Assembly: GCA_947646015.1 (NCBI GenBank)
Contig: CANSEY010000029.1
Location: forward strand, 1 to 53,356
Length of the DNA: 53,356 bases
Direction: 5' to 3'
Source: an uncultured Bacteroides sp.
GTDB taxonomy: Bacteria > Bacteroidota > Bacteroidia > Bacteroidales > Bacteroidaceae
This document shows positions 1-53,356 of the stretch, piece after piece; the first letter of the stretch is position 1; every line of letters begins with the position of its first letter. The notes beneath the pieces are model-generated. The model was not told where the DNA came from and did not search any database. It worked only from the letters and a program-made list of their open reading frames with translations. Made by a program: the position numbers and the translations under genes.

Positions 1-48
1 AATCCTTTGGCCATTGCGGCTGTGCGGGTTCAAGTCCCGCTTCGAGTA
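1..48 (+). tRNA. 3' part of a type II tRNA, probably tRNA-Leu (5' end outside window)
   Basis: The T arm is complete: stem GCGGG (24-28), loop TTCAAGT (29-35), stem CCCGC (36-40). It is followed by a 7-nt acceptor strand (41-47) and discriminator A48. A long variable arm with stem GCC/GGC (10-12 with 18-20) marks the Leu/Ser/Tyr class. Discriminator A and the TTCAAGT loop favour Leu. The anticodon lies outside the window, so identity is not proven. CCA is not encoded. Confidence 0.8.
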
Positions 49-63
49 CGAGCGTCTAGCCAG

Positions 64-46661: not shown

Positions 46662-49652
46662 ATGCTAAAACAACTACTAACAGTTGTGTTTCTGCTGAGT
46701 GCAGGCACTTTGTGGGCACAACAAGCTGCAGGACTTCTGCCTGTACAGGAAGATACACATTGCAAAGAATGGGTAGAGCAGACGCTCTCCCGTATGAAAC
46801 TGAAAGATAAAGTCGGGCAATTATTTGTTTATACCCTGGCTCCACGAGCAGATAAAGATACTGAAAAGTTAGTGGGCAAACTGACCCGCAAGTTCAAAGT
46901 AGGGGCCTTTCTGTACTCTGAAGGAACAGTAGAAGATCAGGCAAACCTGACCAACTATGCGCAACGCCAGTCGAAAATTCCATTAATGATTACCTTTGAT
47001 GGTGAGTGGGGACTCGCCATGCGATTGGAAAATACACCGGTGTTTCCACGTAATGCGGCATTGGGCTGTATCAGCGACAATACCTTGATTGAGGCTTATG
47101 GGCAGGAAGTGGCGCGTGAGCTTCGTGAGATAGGTGCGCACGTTAATTTTGCTCCGGATGCGGATGTTAATACCAATCCTGAAAATCCGGTCATCCATGT
47201 CCGTTCGTTTGGTGAAAATCCGAAAACTGTGGCTGAGAAAGTAATAGCTTATGGGCGTGGATTGGAGACCGGTGGCATTTTGTCTGTCTCCAAGCATTTC
47301 CCGGGACATGGTGACACGGATGTCGACTCACACCAGGCATTGCCTGCCGTTTATTATAATCGTGCACGGCTGGACAGTGTGGAACTGTATCCTTTTAAAG
47401 AAGCCATTCAGGCAGGATTGGGAGGTGTGATGGTGGGACACTTACAAGTGCCGGCCTTAGAACCTGACCGGATTACCCCTTCTTCATTGTCACATAGCAT
47501 TGTGACGGATCTATTGAGAGGAGAGTTGGGATTCAATGGATTGGTATTTACCGATGCGCTCGCCATGAAAGGAGTAGCTGCCGAATCGGATGTAACAGTG
47601 AAGGCTCTGAAGGCCGGTAATGATATGGTGCTGGTACAGCAAAATGTAGAAAAAGCACAAGAGAGTGTGGTGCAAGCCATAAAAGACGGACGTCTCACGA
47701 TGGAAGAAATAGATGCGAAATGCCGTAGAATTCTGGCGTATAAATATCGTTTGGGATTAAGCAGGCGACCGATGATTCCGGTAGACGGATTGAGTGACCG
47801 TATTCATACTCCTGAAGCGCAGGCTTTGGTAACCAAGCTGCGTACGTCGGCAGTGACTGTACTTGGGAATTATTTTCAGATCCTTCCTCTTACTGCAACA
47901 AAGGGTGAGATAGCCGTATTAACAGTGGGAGATGAAGGCAGCGATGCTTCTTTCATCGAGGGGTTACGTAGTGAATTACCATTAAAAACATTCCGGATGG
48001 ATAAAAATACCGGGGAAGAAGAGCGGCGGAAGATAGTGAAAGAACTGGGAAACTATCGGAGGGTGGTTGTCTGTATAACGGTGCAGGATAAAGAAGCGGG
48101 TGAATATCGTTCGTTTTTTGCCGGGTTCAGGCCCCAAGCTCCTGTGGTCTACGCTTTCTTTACTTCCTATCGGGCACTGGCGTCGCTTGAAGAGGCTGCC
48201 GCCCGTTCGGCTGCTGTTGTCCTGGCACATTCCGGTGAGGAGGATTTGCAACGCTATGTAGCCGATGTGATATTGGGCAAAGCTTCGGCAACGGGACGTT
48301 TATCCATGCGTATCGGCAATACATTTGCAGCCGGTTCCGGTGTAGATGTGATATCCGGTAGCCCAGCGGGCATAGCACCCGAAGATTATGGTTTGAAATC
48401 ATACAGACTCCACCGGATAGACTCGGTGGTAACTGCCGGGCTGGCGGCGAAAGCCTTTCCCGGATGCCAGGTGTTGGTATTGCGGCATGGACAACCGGTA
48501 TATGATAAATGTTTCGGCACTCACTCTGTAACAGACACTACTCCGGTACGGGCGACCGACCTTTTCGATCTCGCTTCATTGACTAAAACCAGTGCCACAC
48601 TGCTGGCCGTGATGAAACTCTATGATCAGGGACGGATCGAGTTGACAGATGCTGTCTCTAAATACGTGCCTGCTTTGCGGGCTACGAACAAAAAGAATAT
48701 CACAATCAGGGAACTGTTGTTACATGAATCCGGACTGGTGCCTTATATTCGTTTTTATCGTGATGCAATCGATGAATACTCGGTGACCGGTCCTTTTACA
48801 CAAGGATTTGTAGACGAGTGGCACCATACCCGTATGGGAGAATATACTTATGCCTGTTCCGATTTCAAGTTTAAGAAAGGATTGGTTTCTGCAACAAAAA
48901 CCTCCGGGCATACGTTGCAGATAGCCGATGGATTGTGGCTGGACAAGAAATTTAAAGCTGCGATGATGAAGAGTATTGCGCAGTCGGAACTCGACCGTAA
49001 ACGTTTTGTATATAGTGATATCGGATTTATCCTGTTGCAACAGGTGGTGGAAGCCGTTACCGGCAAGACACTCGATGCTTATTTAGTTTCAGAGTTTTAT
49101 CGGCCTATGGGATTGGAACATACATTGTTCCAACCTTTAAACCGTTATAAGAAAGCGGATATTATGCCGACTGCTGCCAATGATTACTTACGTCGGCAGG
49201 ATCTTTGCGGATATGTGCATGATGAAGCTGCCGCCTTTATGGGAGGCGTAAGTGGCAATGCCGGATTGTTTTCAACGGCCCAAGAGTTGGGAAAAATCTA
49301 TCAGATGATTCTGAATGAGGGTGAACTGGATGGAAAACGCTATCTTCGGCCGGAAACCTGTCGTATATTTACTACGGAGAAATCAGCTGTCAGTCATCGT
49401 GGACTGGGGTATGACAAACCTAATCTGAAGGATCCGAAGGCAAATGCCTGTGCTTCTTCGGCTCCGGCTTCTGTTTATGGGCATACCGGCTTTACGGGTA
49501 CTTGTGCTTGGGTTGATCCGGAGAACGACCTGGTCTATATCTTCCTGAGTAATCGTCTTTGTCCCGATGCCTGGAATGGAAAGCTGAACAGCATGAAGAT
49601 ACGACAAGCAGTCCAGGAAGTGATTTATCAGTCGTTATATACACCGGAATAG
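46662..49652 (+). CDS. Secreted GH3 (NagZ-type) and beta-lactamase-like fusion protein, copy 1
   Basis: 996 residues with a signal peptide (MLKQLLTVVFLLSAGTLWAQ). Residues about 35-370 are the GH3 barrel with the NagZ signature KHFPGHGDTDVDSH (211-224), whose histidine replaces the usual acid/base, and the nucleophile D298 in VFTDALAMKG. Residues 390-560 form a GH3 C-like sandwich. Residues 590-990 are a class C beta-lactamase/PBP4-like serine hydrolase: S639 in SLTK, YSD at 784-786, and HTG at 941-943. Expected to release N-acetylglucosamine from muropeptides or chitin-like fragments, with a serine-hydrolase activity on peptide or ester bonds. Co-transcribed with copy 2. Confidence 0.92.
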   Translation: MLKQLLTVVFLLSAGTLWAQQAAGLLPVQEDTHCKEWVEQTLSRMKLKDKVGQLFVYTLAPRADKDTEKLVGKLTRKFKVGAFLYSEGTVEDQANLTNYAQRQSKIPLMITFDGEWGLAMRLENTPVFPRNAALGCISDNTLIEAYGQEVARELREIGAHVNFAPDADVNTNPENPVIHVRSFGENPKTVAEKVIAYGRGLETGGILSVSKHFPGHGDTDVDSHQALPAVYYNRARLDSVELYPFKEAIQAGLGGVMVGHLQVPALEPDRITPSSLSHSIVTDLLRGELGFNGLVFTDALAMKGVAAESDVTVKALKAGNDMVLVQQNVEKAQESVVQAIKDGRLTMEEIDAKCRRILAYKYRLGLSRRPMIPVDGLSDRIHTPEAQALVTKLRTSAVTVLGNYFQILPLTATKGEIAVLTVGDEGSDASFIEGLRSELPLKTFRMDKNTGEEERRKIVKELGNYRRVVVCITVQDKEAGEYRSFFAGFRPQAPVVYAFFTSYRALASLEEAAARSAAVVLAHSGEEDLQRYVADVILGKASATGRLSMRIGNTFAAGSGVDVISGSPAGIAPEDYGLKSYRLHRIDSVVTAGLAAKAFPGCQVLVLRHGQPVYDKCFGTHSVTDTTPVRATDLFDLASLTKTSATLLAVMKLYDQGRIELTDAVSKYVPALRATNKKNITIRELLLHESGLVPYIRFYRDAIDEYSVTGPFTQGFVDEWHHTRMGEYTYACSDFKFKKGLVSATKTSGHTLQIADGLWLDKKFKAAMMKSIAQSELDRKRFVYSDIGFILLQQVVEAVTGKTLDAYLVSEFYRPMGLEHTLFQPLNRYKKADIMPTAANDYLRRQDLCGYVHDEAAAFMGGVSGNAGLFSTAQELGKIYQMILNEGELDGKRYLRPETCRIFTTEKSAVSHRGLGYDKPNLKDPKANACASSAPASVYGHTGFTGTCAWVDPENDLVYIFLSNRLCPDAWNGKLNSMKIRQAVQEVIYQSLYTPE

Positions 49653-49681: not shown

Positions 49682-52600
49682 ATGAAAAGAAGATATTTAT
49701 TGGCTGGTTTAGTTGTATCAGCGCTTTTGGGAGTAGGAGCGAAAGTTCCTGCTTCTATGGATGCCCCTGTCCGTGAGGTTTTTCATACTCCTCCCGGTAT
49801 GTCTGCTCCTATAGAACCTTTGTTGCTTTATCAGGCTTCCCAGGATGAAAAGTGCCGTCACTGGGTAGATTCTGTCTACAATCGGATGAATCTGAGAGAG
49901 AAAGTGGGGCAATTGTTTATTTACACCATTGCGCCCGTGCAGACCAAGCGTAATATGCAGTTGTTGCGTGATGCGGTTCATACTTATAAAGTCGGTGGAT
50001 TACTTTTTTCCGGCGGAAAGATACAGAATCAGGCTACATTGACCAACGAAGCGCAACGGATGGCCCGCTGTCCGCTGCTGATAACCTTCGATGGTGAATG
50101 GGGGCTTTCCATGCGTTTGCGTGGTACTCCTGTCTTTCCGAGAAACATGGTATTAGGATGTATCCAGGACAACCGTTTGATTTATGAATATGGGCGGGAG
50201 ATGGCCCGACAGTGTCGTGAGATGGGAGTGCAAGTCAATTTTGCTCCGGTGGCAGATGTGAATATCAATCCGGACAATCCGGTCATCAATACCCGTTCGT
50301 TTGGTGAAGATCCGGTGAAAGTGGCCGATAAGGTGATTGCTTACGCTTCGGGGCTGGAGAGTGGTAAAGTCCTTTCTGTCTGCAAGCATTTTCCGGGACA
50401 TGGTGATACGGACGTGGATTCTCATAAGGCACTGCCTGTGTTACCATTTACGCGCGAGCGCCTGGACAGTGTTGAACTGTATCCTTTTAAAGAAGCTATT
50501 CGTGCCGGGGTCAGTGGTATGATGGTAGGACACTTGCAGGTACCTGTCATCGAGCCTATAGGTGATTTGCCTTCATCCTTATCCCGTAATGTGGTTTATG
50601 GACTTCTGACCGAGGAATTGGCATTTAAGGGACTTATCTTTACCGATGCCCTTGCTATGAAGGGAGTTGCCGGCAATAAGAGCGTATGTTTGCAAGCTTT
50701 GCAAGCCGGGAACGATCTGGTGCTGGCTCCCCGCAGGCTGAAAGAAGAAATGGACGCTGTATTGGAAGCGGTGGAAAAAGGAGAACTTCCGGAAGAAGAA
50801 ATTAATGCAAAATGTCGGAAAGTACTCACTTACAAATATATTTTGGGGCTGGAACGTAAACCGTTTGTGAAACTATCGGGATTGGGAACCCGTATTAATA
50901 CACCTCAGACACGTGATTTGATTAGCAGGCTGAATCTGGCTGCAATTACTGTGCTGAATAATAAAAATGATGTATTGCCTTTGCATCCCGATCTGAAAGA
51001 GGCGGCCATACTGAATGTAGGCAAACCGGAAGAGATTGAGCCTTTTGACCGCAAAATGAAAAAGTATACTTCATTTGCCCGTTTTCAATTGCGTAAAGAT
51101 CTGCCGGAAGCCGAGCAACAAAAGTTGCGTGACTCTCTTGCTGCCTACCGGCGTGTTATCGTTACTGTGACAGAGCAGCGCCTTGCTCCCTATCAGTCGT
51201 TTTTCGCCAAGTTTGCTCCGGAATCTCCTGTAATATATGTATTCTATACGCCGGCTAAGTCGATGTTACAGATACAGCGGGCTGTATCGGCTGCTGAGGC
51301 TGTGGTATTGGCTCATGCCTCTCGTGACGACGTTCAGGAACGTGTGGCTGATTTACTTTTCGGTAAAGCAACGGCAGATGGAAGACTGTCGGCCAGTATT
51401 GGCGGATTGTTTCCTACCGGTTCGGGTGTTACGATTACTCCGCATACTCCTTTCCACTTTGTACCCGAAGAATATGGAATGAAATCGGAAGTGCTCCGCC
51501 GTATCGACACGATTGCTTTGGAGGGAATCAAGGAGGGAGCTTATCCCGGTTGTCAGGTTCTGGTGATGAAGGATGGCAAAGCTTTGTATGACCGGTGCTT
51601 CGGATACCATACAGATGCAAATAGCGAGAAAGTGAAGCCGACGGATATTTATGATTTGGCTTCTCTGTCTAAAACAACAGGAACGTTGTTGGCCATAATG
51701 AAGCTTTATGATAAAGGTCGTTTCAATCTGACCGATAAAGTTTCAGATTATCTGCCTTTCCTGCGCAAGACGAATAAAGAGAACCTGACCATTCGTGAAT
51801 TGCTCATGCATCAGTCTGGCTTACCTTCCGGTCTGCTTTTCTATCGGGAGGCCATTGACGGGAAAAGCTATAAAGGTTCGCTGTTCAAGCAGTCGAAAGA
51901 TGCCTTACATACGGTACGGTTGGGTGTCCGTACCTGGGGAAATCCAAGATTCCGGTTTAATAAGGGGATGACGTCTAAAGAGAAGAACGGTGATTATACT
52001 CTTCAGGTTTGTGACAGTTTATGGTTGAACCGGTCGTTCCGTGAAGAGATACGGAAGAAAATAGCCGAAGCACCGTTAAAAGACAAGAGTTATCGTTATA
52101 GTGATGTCGGGTTTATCTTGTTGCAGATGCTTGCAGAAGAGCTTAGTGGAAAACCGATGGATGAATATTTATGGCAAGAGTTCTATCAGCCGATGGGATT
52201 GGAACATACTGCCTATCTGCCGTTGCGTTACTTCGATAAAAAAGAGGTAGTACCTTCTGCAGTAGACCGTTTCCTGCGTAAGACTACTTTGCAGGGATTT
52301 GTCCATGATGAGTCGGCTGCTTTCCAGGGGGGAATTTCGGGTAATGCGGGGCTTTTCTCTAATGCTCGTGAAGTCGGACGTATTTATCAGATGTTGCTCA
52401 ATGGAGGTGAGTTGGATGGAAGACGTTATCTCAGCAAGGAAACTTGTGCTCTATTCACTACCGAAAAGTCTAAAATCAGCCGTCGCGGTTTAGGTTTTGA
52501 TAAGCCGGATGTGGTGAATGAAAGTAAAAGTCCGTGCGCTGCTTCTGTTCCGGTTACTGTTTATGGGCATACCGGATTTACAGGAACTTGTGCCTGGGTA

Positions 52601-52735
52601 GATCCCGACAATGGCTTGATTTATGTATTTCTTAGTAATCGTACCTATCCCGATGCTTGGGTGAACAAATTATCTAAACTTGAGATTAGGGAAAAAATTC
52701 AAGAAACGATTTACGAAGCGATGAAAGAAAAGTAA
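49682..52735 (+). CDS. Secreted GH3 (NagZ-type) and beta-lactamase-like fusion protein, copy 2
   Basis: 1017 residues from ATG 49682 (MKRRYLLAGLVVSALLGVGA); in-frame codons back to 49559 overlap the previous gene and are not used. It is a tandem paralogue of the preceding gene: NagZ signature KHFPGHGDTDVDSH near 235, nucleophile in IFTDALAMKGVAG near 320, serine SLSK near 660, YSDVG and terminal GHTGFTGTCAWVDP. Divergence is spread evenly, so the duplication is old. Linkers and the insert around QVCDSLWLNRSF differ most. It begins 29 bases after copy 1. Division of labour between the copies is unknown. Confidence 0.92.
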   Translation: MKRRYLLAGLVVSALLGVGAKVPASMDAPVREVFHTPPGMSAPIEPLLLYQASQDEKCRHWVDSVYNRMNLREKVGQLFIYTIAPVQTKRNMQLLRDAVHTYKVGGLLFSGGKIQNQATLTNEAQRMARCPLLITFDGEWGLSMRLRGTPVFPRNMVLGCIQDNRLIYEYGREMARQCREMGVQVNFAPVADVNINPDNPVINTRSFGEDPVKVADKVIAYASGLESGKVLSVCKHFPGHGDTDVDSHKALPVLPFTRERLDSVELYPFKEAIRAGVSGMMVGHLQVPVIEPIGDLPSSLSRNVVYGLLTEELAFKGLIFTDALAMKGVAGNKSVCLQALQAGNDLVLAPRRLKEEMDAVLEAVEKGELPEEEINAKCRKVLTYKYILGLERKPFVKLSGLGTRINTPQTRDLISRLNLAAITVLNNKNDVLPLHPDLKEAAILNVGKPEEIEPFDRKMKKYTSFARFQLRKDLPEAEQQKLRDSLAAYRRVIVTVTEQRLAPYQSFFAKFAPESPVIYVFYTPAKSMLQIQRAVSAAEAVVLAHASRDDVQERVADLLFGKATADGRLSASIGGLFPTGSGVTITPHTPFHFVPEEYGMKSEVLRRIDTIALEGIKEGAYPGCQVLVMKDGKALYDRCFGYHTDANSEKVKPTDIYDLASLSKTTGTLLAIMKLYDKGRFNLTDKVSDYLPFLRKTNKENLTIRELLMHQSGLPSGLLFYREAIDGKSYKGSLFKQSKDALHTVRLGVRTWGNPRFRFNKGMTSKEKNGDYTLQVCDSLWLNRSFREEIRKKIAEAPLKDKSYRYSDVGFILLQMLAEELSGKPMDEYLWQEFYQPMGLEHTAYLPLRYFDKKEVVPSAVDRFLRKTTLQGFVHDESAAFQGGISGNAGLFSNAREVGRIYQMLLNGGELDGRRYLSKETCALFTTEKSKISRRGLGFDKPDVVNESKSPCAASVPVTVYGHTGFTGTCAWVDPDNGLIYVFLSNRTYPDAWVNKLSKLEIREKIQETIYEAMKEK

Positions 52736-52764
52736 TCATTACATATATAGGTCTATTATACATC

Positions 52765-52797
52765 AATTCCTGATAGAGCGTTGCTCCGTCAGGAATT
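52765..52797 (+). terminator. Probable terminator of the nucleotidase/GH3 operon
   Basis: Stem AATTCCTGA/TCAGGAATT (52765-52773 with 52789-52797) with inner GAGC/GCTC (52776-52779 with 52783-52786) and a three-base loop. The T-run is short, so it may be a weak terminator. Confidence 0.6.
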
Positions 52798-52982
52798 TGT
52801 GTATAACGTCCTATGGTTCATGATGTTTGATATGCTGATATTTCTATTTAGTACTATTGATCCACCGGGATATTCAGGTTATAAATATGGGTTTCACTTT
52901 CTAAATGTAAAGAAATAAGTTTGAGAATAGTCAGGGATGGAGAAAAGTATTAAAATTAATAGTAAAATGAGTGCTCTACTCT

Positions 52983-52999
52983 AAGTTCTATCAGAACTT
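52983..52999. repeat. Left inverted repeat of the invertible segment
   Basis: The 17-base site is itself a perfect palindrome (AAGTTCT, three-base centre, AGAACTT), typical of recombinase half-site symmetry. Confidence 0.7.
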
Positions 53000-53161
53000 T
53001 CCGAAAGGAGTTAGGGGAAATTGGAGAGCATTTTCTCATAAGTATTAATATTTAATTGGTTTTTAGATAGTGGGATAGGACTAATTGAGAAGACTTCTAT
53101 ATGTGTCTGTTTACCCTCTTGATCCTACTTTTCTACCTGTATTAGATTTAACTTTCGAAGA

Positions 53162-53192
53162 CAAAGTTAACTGTATTTTTTATAAATACAAT
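53162..53192 (-). promoter_or_regulatory. Promoter inside the invertible segment, reading leftward
   Basis: On the minus strand, ATTG (53192-53189), 19 bases, then TAACTTTG (53169-53162): a close fit to the Bacteroides TTTG-N19-TAnnTTTG promoter. It now reads toward the 3' end of the convergent GH3 gene; inversion would point it to the right. Confidence 0.65.
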
Positions 53193-53301
53193 AAACAATA
53201 CTAAAAAATAATATAAAATAATTCTTTTATTGATTTGTTTTTCCGCCTAATATAAATGATAAAGTAATATAAAAAGAAAAGTAATCCTTTCATGTCATTT
53301 T

Positions 53302-53318
53302 AAGTTCTGATAGGACTT
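53302..53318. repeat. Right inverted repeat of the invertible segment
   Basis: The 17-base site AAGTTCTGATAGGACTT differs from the complement of the left copy at one base and is nearly palindromic. Confidence 0.7.
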
Positions 53319-53356
53319 GGCATTTCTGCCGGCCTGCTCTCTCCGAACTATGTGTT

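Follow-up and report, generated by a model that had tools for sequence, protein, structure and literature searches.

A probable conserved phase switch at the start of a SusC/SusD importer gene in an uncultured Bacteroides sp.

The locus and its inverted repeats

The window, that is, the whole stretch of DNA analysed, is an entire contig (C29, 53,356 nt) of a genome assembled into 100 contigs and 74.7% complete. Toward its right end, a gene for a two-domain protein is followed by two short inverted repeats, the second of which lies within the opening of a SusC-type reading frame that continues on another contig (C1). We term the orientation found here OFF and its inverse ON, and genomes in which the region was recovered are termed carriers. 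The features of the region are as follows.

49697..52735, plus strand: upstream gene, encoding a glycoside hydrolase family 3 domain and a beta-lactamase-like domain; start codon provisional
52756..52806, plus strand: inverted repeat with 24-nt arms and a 3-nt loop, 3' of the upstream gene
52983..52999, no strand assigned: left inverted repeat, AAGTTCTATCAGAACTT; fits AGTYYYN4GDACT; found in 5/5 carrier genomes
52998..53039, minus strand: hidden start plus 13 further codons, ATG at 53039-53037, MRKCSPISPNSFRK; in frame with susC after inversion
53000..53301, no strand assigned: candidate invertible segment, 302 nt, OFF here; orientation common to all 5 carriers
53162..53169, minus strand: candidate -7 element, TAACTTTG, the segment's sole exact TAnnTTTG when both strands are considered; faces susC only when inverted
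53189..53191, minus strand: TTG, possible -33 element, 19 nt upstream of the -7 element
53301..53303, plus strand: TAA stop in the susC frame, immediately ahead of the part of susC that the right repeat encodes; ends the frame in OFF
53302..53318, no strand assigned: right inverted repeat, AAGTTCTGATAGGACTT; encodes part of the susC signal peptide; its first base is the end of C1
53304..53356, plus strand: 5' end of the susC reading frame, VLIGLGISAGLLSPNYV...; runs on into C1

The upstream gene (49697-52735) served as the anchor for locating relatives, and in the named B. fragilis genomes S82 and Q1F2 its product is 93% and 90% identical, respectively, at the amino acid level (best tblastn segment). 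The neighbouring gene at 46662-49652 has the same unusual domain order, with glycoside hydrolase family 3 preceding the beta-lactamase-like domain. The hairpin-like repeat at 52756-52806 is probably a terminator that insulates the switch from the upstream gene.

A repeat search of 52500-53356 returned the arms 52983-52999 and 53302-53318 as inverted repeats of 17 nt each, complementary at 16 of 17 positions (94%) and separated by 302 nt. Both arms fit the motif AGTYYYN4GDACT, and thus the repeat search and the motif match agree with the pair of sites reported in an initial annotation of this DNA. A chance origin of the pair was ruled out using first-order Markov shuffles of the window. Motif pairs 100-600 nt apart with at most one mismatch occur once in the window and were absent from 300 shuffles (16.0 Mb in total). 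When any inverted 17-mer pair was counted within the same limits, the window again held one, and 40 shuffles gave a mean of 0.025 and a maximum of 1.

The window's final 55 nt reappear, reverse-complemented, as the final 55 nt of C1, which terminates at the first base of the right repeat. Beyond this junction, C1 encodes a SusC-type TonB-dependent receptor (Pfam domains Plug, TonB_dep_Rec_b-barrel and CarbopepD_reg_2), followed by a SusD protein (SusD_RagB). In a search of the same genome, the 407-nt stretch 52950-53356 had no match other than the window itself and the end of C1, and in S82 and Q1F2 the segment continues unbroken into the same susC frame. The initial annotation had proposed a surface-protein or capsule target and the layout of B. 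fragilis invertible regions. A capsule operon is excluded by the susC/susD domains downstream. The layout was borne out to the extent that a candidate invertible segment with a predicted promoter precedes a surface-protein gene in a close relative of B. fragilis, but the target itself lies off the end of the window.

A hidden start codon and a predicted promoter within the segment

In the OFF orientation, the first in-frame ATG, GTG or TTG after the TAA is the GTG at 53352, which lies beyond the hydrophobic core of the signal peptide. We inverted the segment in silico, carrying the whole right repeat along with it. The susC frame then reads back through the repeat to the ATG at 53039 on the minus strand, giving MRKCSPISPNSFRK followed by VLIGLGISAGLLSPNYVFA, which, judged by eye, is a plausible signal peptide. 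The same operation in S82 and Q1F2 extended the susC ORF from 1063 to 1093 aa. After inversion one repeat residue is E (in the window and Q1F2) or V (in S82) instead of G. The C1 end retains the G codon, so that strand exchange would fall left of position 13 in the repeat. The segment had been described as about 300 bp of non-coding DNA, and this applies to the orientation shown, but the minus strand at 53039-52998 holds an ATG and 13 codons that would join susC upon inversion.

Promoters with -33 and -7 elements follow a spacing rule for the two elements, and the TTG at 53189-53191 is the possible -33 partner of the -7 element listed above. The latter is an exact match to the -7 consensus TAnnTTTG, as given in excerpts of PMC4747536, in four of the five carriers, the exception being G018 (TAACTTCG). 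By consensus, the segment thus contains a predicted promoter that is directed at susC in one orientation only. One-mismatch matches to TAnnTTTG are present on both strands of the segment, so that some promoter activity toward susC may also occur in OFF. Likewise, the stretch 53149-53169 reads almost alike on its two strands (plus, TAACTTTC; minus, TAACTTTG), which makes weak transcription in the opposite direction possible. The term promoter segment, used in the initial annotation, suits the lone exact -7 match that faces susC after inversion, but it covers only part of the content, as the segment also holds the start codon and the n-region of the signal peptide. Invertible promoters are in general defined as having no coding sequence in the segment; here a start and 13 codons lie inside. 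Since the segment carries both the predicted promoter and the start codon, transcription and translation start would switch together.

A simpler arrangement would be an inversion that alters transcription alone, with the susC start outside the segment in both orientations. Other motif pairs in this genome have such a position: those at C49, C21/C49, C6 and C25 lie upstream of the nearest start codons, the C49 pairs being 193 and 232 nt upstream of SusC-length genes and the C21 pair preceding the SusC-type gene on that contig by about 210 nt. At the present locus, the right repeat lies within the susC frame, the first start available in OFF falls past the hydrophobic core, and the protein sequence of the hidden codons is the same in all five carriers. 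These features render a switch of transcription alone highly improbable here and favor a switch that also controls the start of translation.

Conservation, orientation and the contig break

We searched 158 genomes of the genus for carriers with a 397-nt query. Eighteen genomes matched, five over most of the query and 13 in short, weakly similar stretches (best E 2.7e-5 to 8.3e-4) that were left out of the carrier count; the remaining 140 gave no match. The five carriers are the window's own genome, G017 (99% against the query), G018 (= S82), G023 (= Q1F2) and G016. Retention of the repeat pair in related strains had been set in advance as a test of the initial annotation, and the pair was found in these four other genomes. 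The 14 hidden residues are identical in all five carriers, with three variable nucleotides, each a synonymous change at a third codon position. In the most distant carrier, G016, identity in 30-nt bins was 28 and 29 of 30 at the left repeat and 27 and 24 of 30 at the promoter, with 12-23 of 30 in the other bins of the segment. We read this pattern as selection on the hidden N-terminus and the promoter; for the coding part, with three substitutions, the case is suggestive, not strong.

The segment is in the OFF orientation in 5/5 carriers. With up to two mismatches allowed, the predicted ON junction was found in none of the 158 genus genomes, including the window's own; a search of viral contigs for it likewise gave none. 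We also compared the predicted ON-state N-terminus joined to the receptor with 301 genomes of the family, of which 12 matched at E <= 1e-90. Three of the 13 fetched loci were inspected. Leaving aside the window's gene, the N-terminus was covered furthest by a match in G021 (query residues 12-366); it was rejected as an ON-like relative, having an ordinary, dissimilar signal peptide and no motif in the fetched locus.

These data fit a switch that is mostly OFF, and also a frozen one, in which relic repeats no longer invert and susC is silent in present strains; OFF in every carrier and an ON junction in 0/158 genomes both agree with the latter. A dead gene should decay, and the intact hidden codons and susC frame in the relatives argue against it, as do the conservation of both repeats and the fact that the contig breaks where the repeat begins. 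We consider a frozen switch quite improbable.

C1 breaks precisely at the position from which an ON sequence would part from an OFF sequence, with a 55-nt overlap with the window. Assemblers of the de Bruijn type leave such overlaps at branch points, and we infer that an assembler of this type was used. The break, which like the repeats, the in-frame join in silico and the conservation pattern is visible in the sequence itself, suggests a second orientation in the sampled population. Other contig ends in this genome fall at the motif: a motif repeat marks the precise end of both C21 and C49, and their counterparts in G017 flank a motif pair 443 nt apart, upstream of a SusC-type gene on C21. 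C90 has a motif repeat at its start, and C52 runs 37 nt past one before it ends. The motif was found within the last 60 nt of 8 of 21 contig ends, many of them chosen for the motif, so that this count is no rate. Two of those eight ends form the motif-bearing junction of C55/C65, which was set aside as a coding repeat junction rather than a switch. In a control with the reversed motif (at least 103 places), none of the matches listed lay within 400 nt of a contig start.

The break could also stem from a mixture of strains, low coverage or an unrelated repeat instead of inverted molecules, as 55-nt shared ends are found at the ordinary repeat of C55/C65 and between the starts of C29 and C82 as well. 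Against this, the present break falls on the very base predicted for inversion, and 52950-53356 has its only matches in the genome at the window and the C1 end. We regard such an artefact as unlikely and favor inverted molecules as the source of the break. Contig breaks lying exactly on recombination repeats may serve as hints of active inversion that require no reads. The 55 nt shared with C82 (window positions 1-55) mark a further assembly branch point, without a link to the motif.

Recombinases, the proposed mechanism and known switches

The consensus AGTYYYN4GDACT is assigned to the tyrosine recombinase Tsr0667, and the repeats used by the serine recombinase Mpi probably differ from those at the present locus. 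The Tsr0667 inversions of B. fragilis were reportedly described by Nakayama-Imaohji in 2009 as nine simple regions and three SusC/SusD shufflons. A text search of the literature for the consensus gave no relevant paper. According to excerpts of PMC4747536, Tsr0667 is responsible for the shufflons of three SusC/SusD clusters and for the inversion of nine further regions, and Mpi for that of the capsule promoters. The motif and the SusC/SusD target point away from the fin-type or capsule class named by the initial annotation and toward the Tsr0667 class of tyrosine recombinases.

The window's own genome has 41 matches to PF00589, 38 of them above the cut-off. Two of these recombinases (C1:311346-312524 and C52:16000-17160) lie between motif sites of SusC shufflons. 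The first has the domains Arm-DNA-bind_5, Phage_int_SAM_5 and Phage_integrase and is 100% identical in G017, at 714 kb; the second is 76% identical to it. On the basis of motif, target and context, the C1 enzyme is a candidate orthologue of Tsr0667. The suggested search for further motif pairs and a recombinase was thus productive, with pairs at C49, C21/C49, C6, C25 and C3 and tyrosine recombinases within SusC shufflons. The large number of PF00589 proteins leaves room for a different enzyme, such as Mpi or another tyrosine recombinase, to move the switch. The motif class and the SusC target both match Tsr0667, and the two recombinases inside motif-bounded SusC shufflons share this context; a different enzyme is accordingly doubtful, albeit the most serious of the alternatives considered here, and we prefer the Tsr0667 orthologue. 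The C1 shufflon (C1:305000-324900) comprises one SusC gene with a normal N-terminus and three without, the site AGTCTTTGCAGAACT four times, and the tyrosine recombinase. The C52 SusC/SusD shufflon has AGTCTTTGCAGAACT twice, along with the second recombinase.

We consider it very probable that a Tsr0667-like inversion switch, acting through a tyrosine recombinase, controls this SusC/SusD outer-membrane importer; inversion in cells, the identity of the enzyme, promoter activity and the phenotype are what we infer in this mechanism. In OFF, the susC frame would open inside the right repeat just past the TAA, with the promoter facing away. Strand exchange within the repeats would turn the 302-nt segment around. 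In ON, the promoter, a leader of about 116 nt, and the ATG with 13 further codons would be fused in frame to the remainder of the signal peptide (MRKCSPISPNSFRKVLIGLGISAGLLSPNYVFA...), allowing susC and susD to be transcribed, translated and exported. A more specific version can be put forward only tentatively, namely a start-codon and signal-peptide inverton in which one flip sets transcription, translation start and export, with OFF in all carriers and ON perhaps confined to a rare host niche. The OFF state of every carrier assembly, together with hidden codons that appear to be under purifying selection, would accord with an ON state limited to a host niche that is rarely captured by cultures and assemblies.

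The locus is probably a conserved phase switch acting on a SusC/SusD importer; its ingredients are known, and its distinctive trait is the start-codon design. With the Tsr0667 regions it shares the AGTYYYN4GDACT repeats, the SusC/SusD target and a tyrosine recombinase in the genome, whereas here a small, simple inversion would unite promoter, start codon and signal-peptide n-region. Passages of PMC5729914 describe a shufflon of B. fragilis NCTC 9343, 'region EE', with repeats that overlap the start codon of susC homologues. It resembles our locus in having repeats over the susC start region, downstream of an invertible promoter, but it shuffles large segments of several genes, in contrast to one gene and one 302-nt segment here. 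The Mpi capsule promoters are likewise small invertible promoter segments with a surface target, but with a serine recombinase and capsule operons in place of susC/susD. According to excerpts of PMC12632263, gut Bacteroidales show promoter, gene-moving and within-gene inversions, and those of PMC10939037 place invertible regions in or near SusC/SusD-like systems among the ones differing most in orientation between IBD patients and controls. The locus is not mentioned in the excerpted text of PMC10939037, PMC11892184, PMC11852207, PMC2535602 or PMC11868660, and it may already be among the published lists of B. fragilis invertible regions.

The analysis yields a precise ON/OFF prediction (ON junction and N-terminus) for an importer of a gut commensal near B. 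fragilis. If true, a simple small inverton can carry the translation start and half of a signal peptide besides a promoter, and gene callers would assign wrong starts to such genes in the OFF state. Intragenic or gene-altering inversions of gut bacteria have reportedly been described by Chanin (2024) and Milman (2023). The present locus is like them in that coding sequence is changed, not transcription alone, but the segment encodes no more than the 14 N-terminal residues, and the outcome would be ON or OFF rather than two proteins.

Two further motif sites lie near putative regulators. At C90:1-700, the motif repeat is located about 150 nt ahead of a gene that by eye resembles an ECF sigma factor, and is possibly a switch acting on a regulator. 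At C3:129065-130914, a hybrid two-component regulator is interrupted by AAGTTCCAGAAGAACTT and its complement, an inverted pair of motif sites, with the sensor part (Reg_prop, Y_Y_Y) on one strand and the kinase/receiver/AraC part on the other. The arrangement resembles a regulator switched by inversion within its own gene. The split gene adjoins a TonB-dependent-receptor-like gene. G017, G018 and G023 are colinear with the region and so share the split orientation, whereas G016 gave weak partial matches only.
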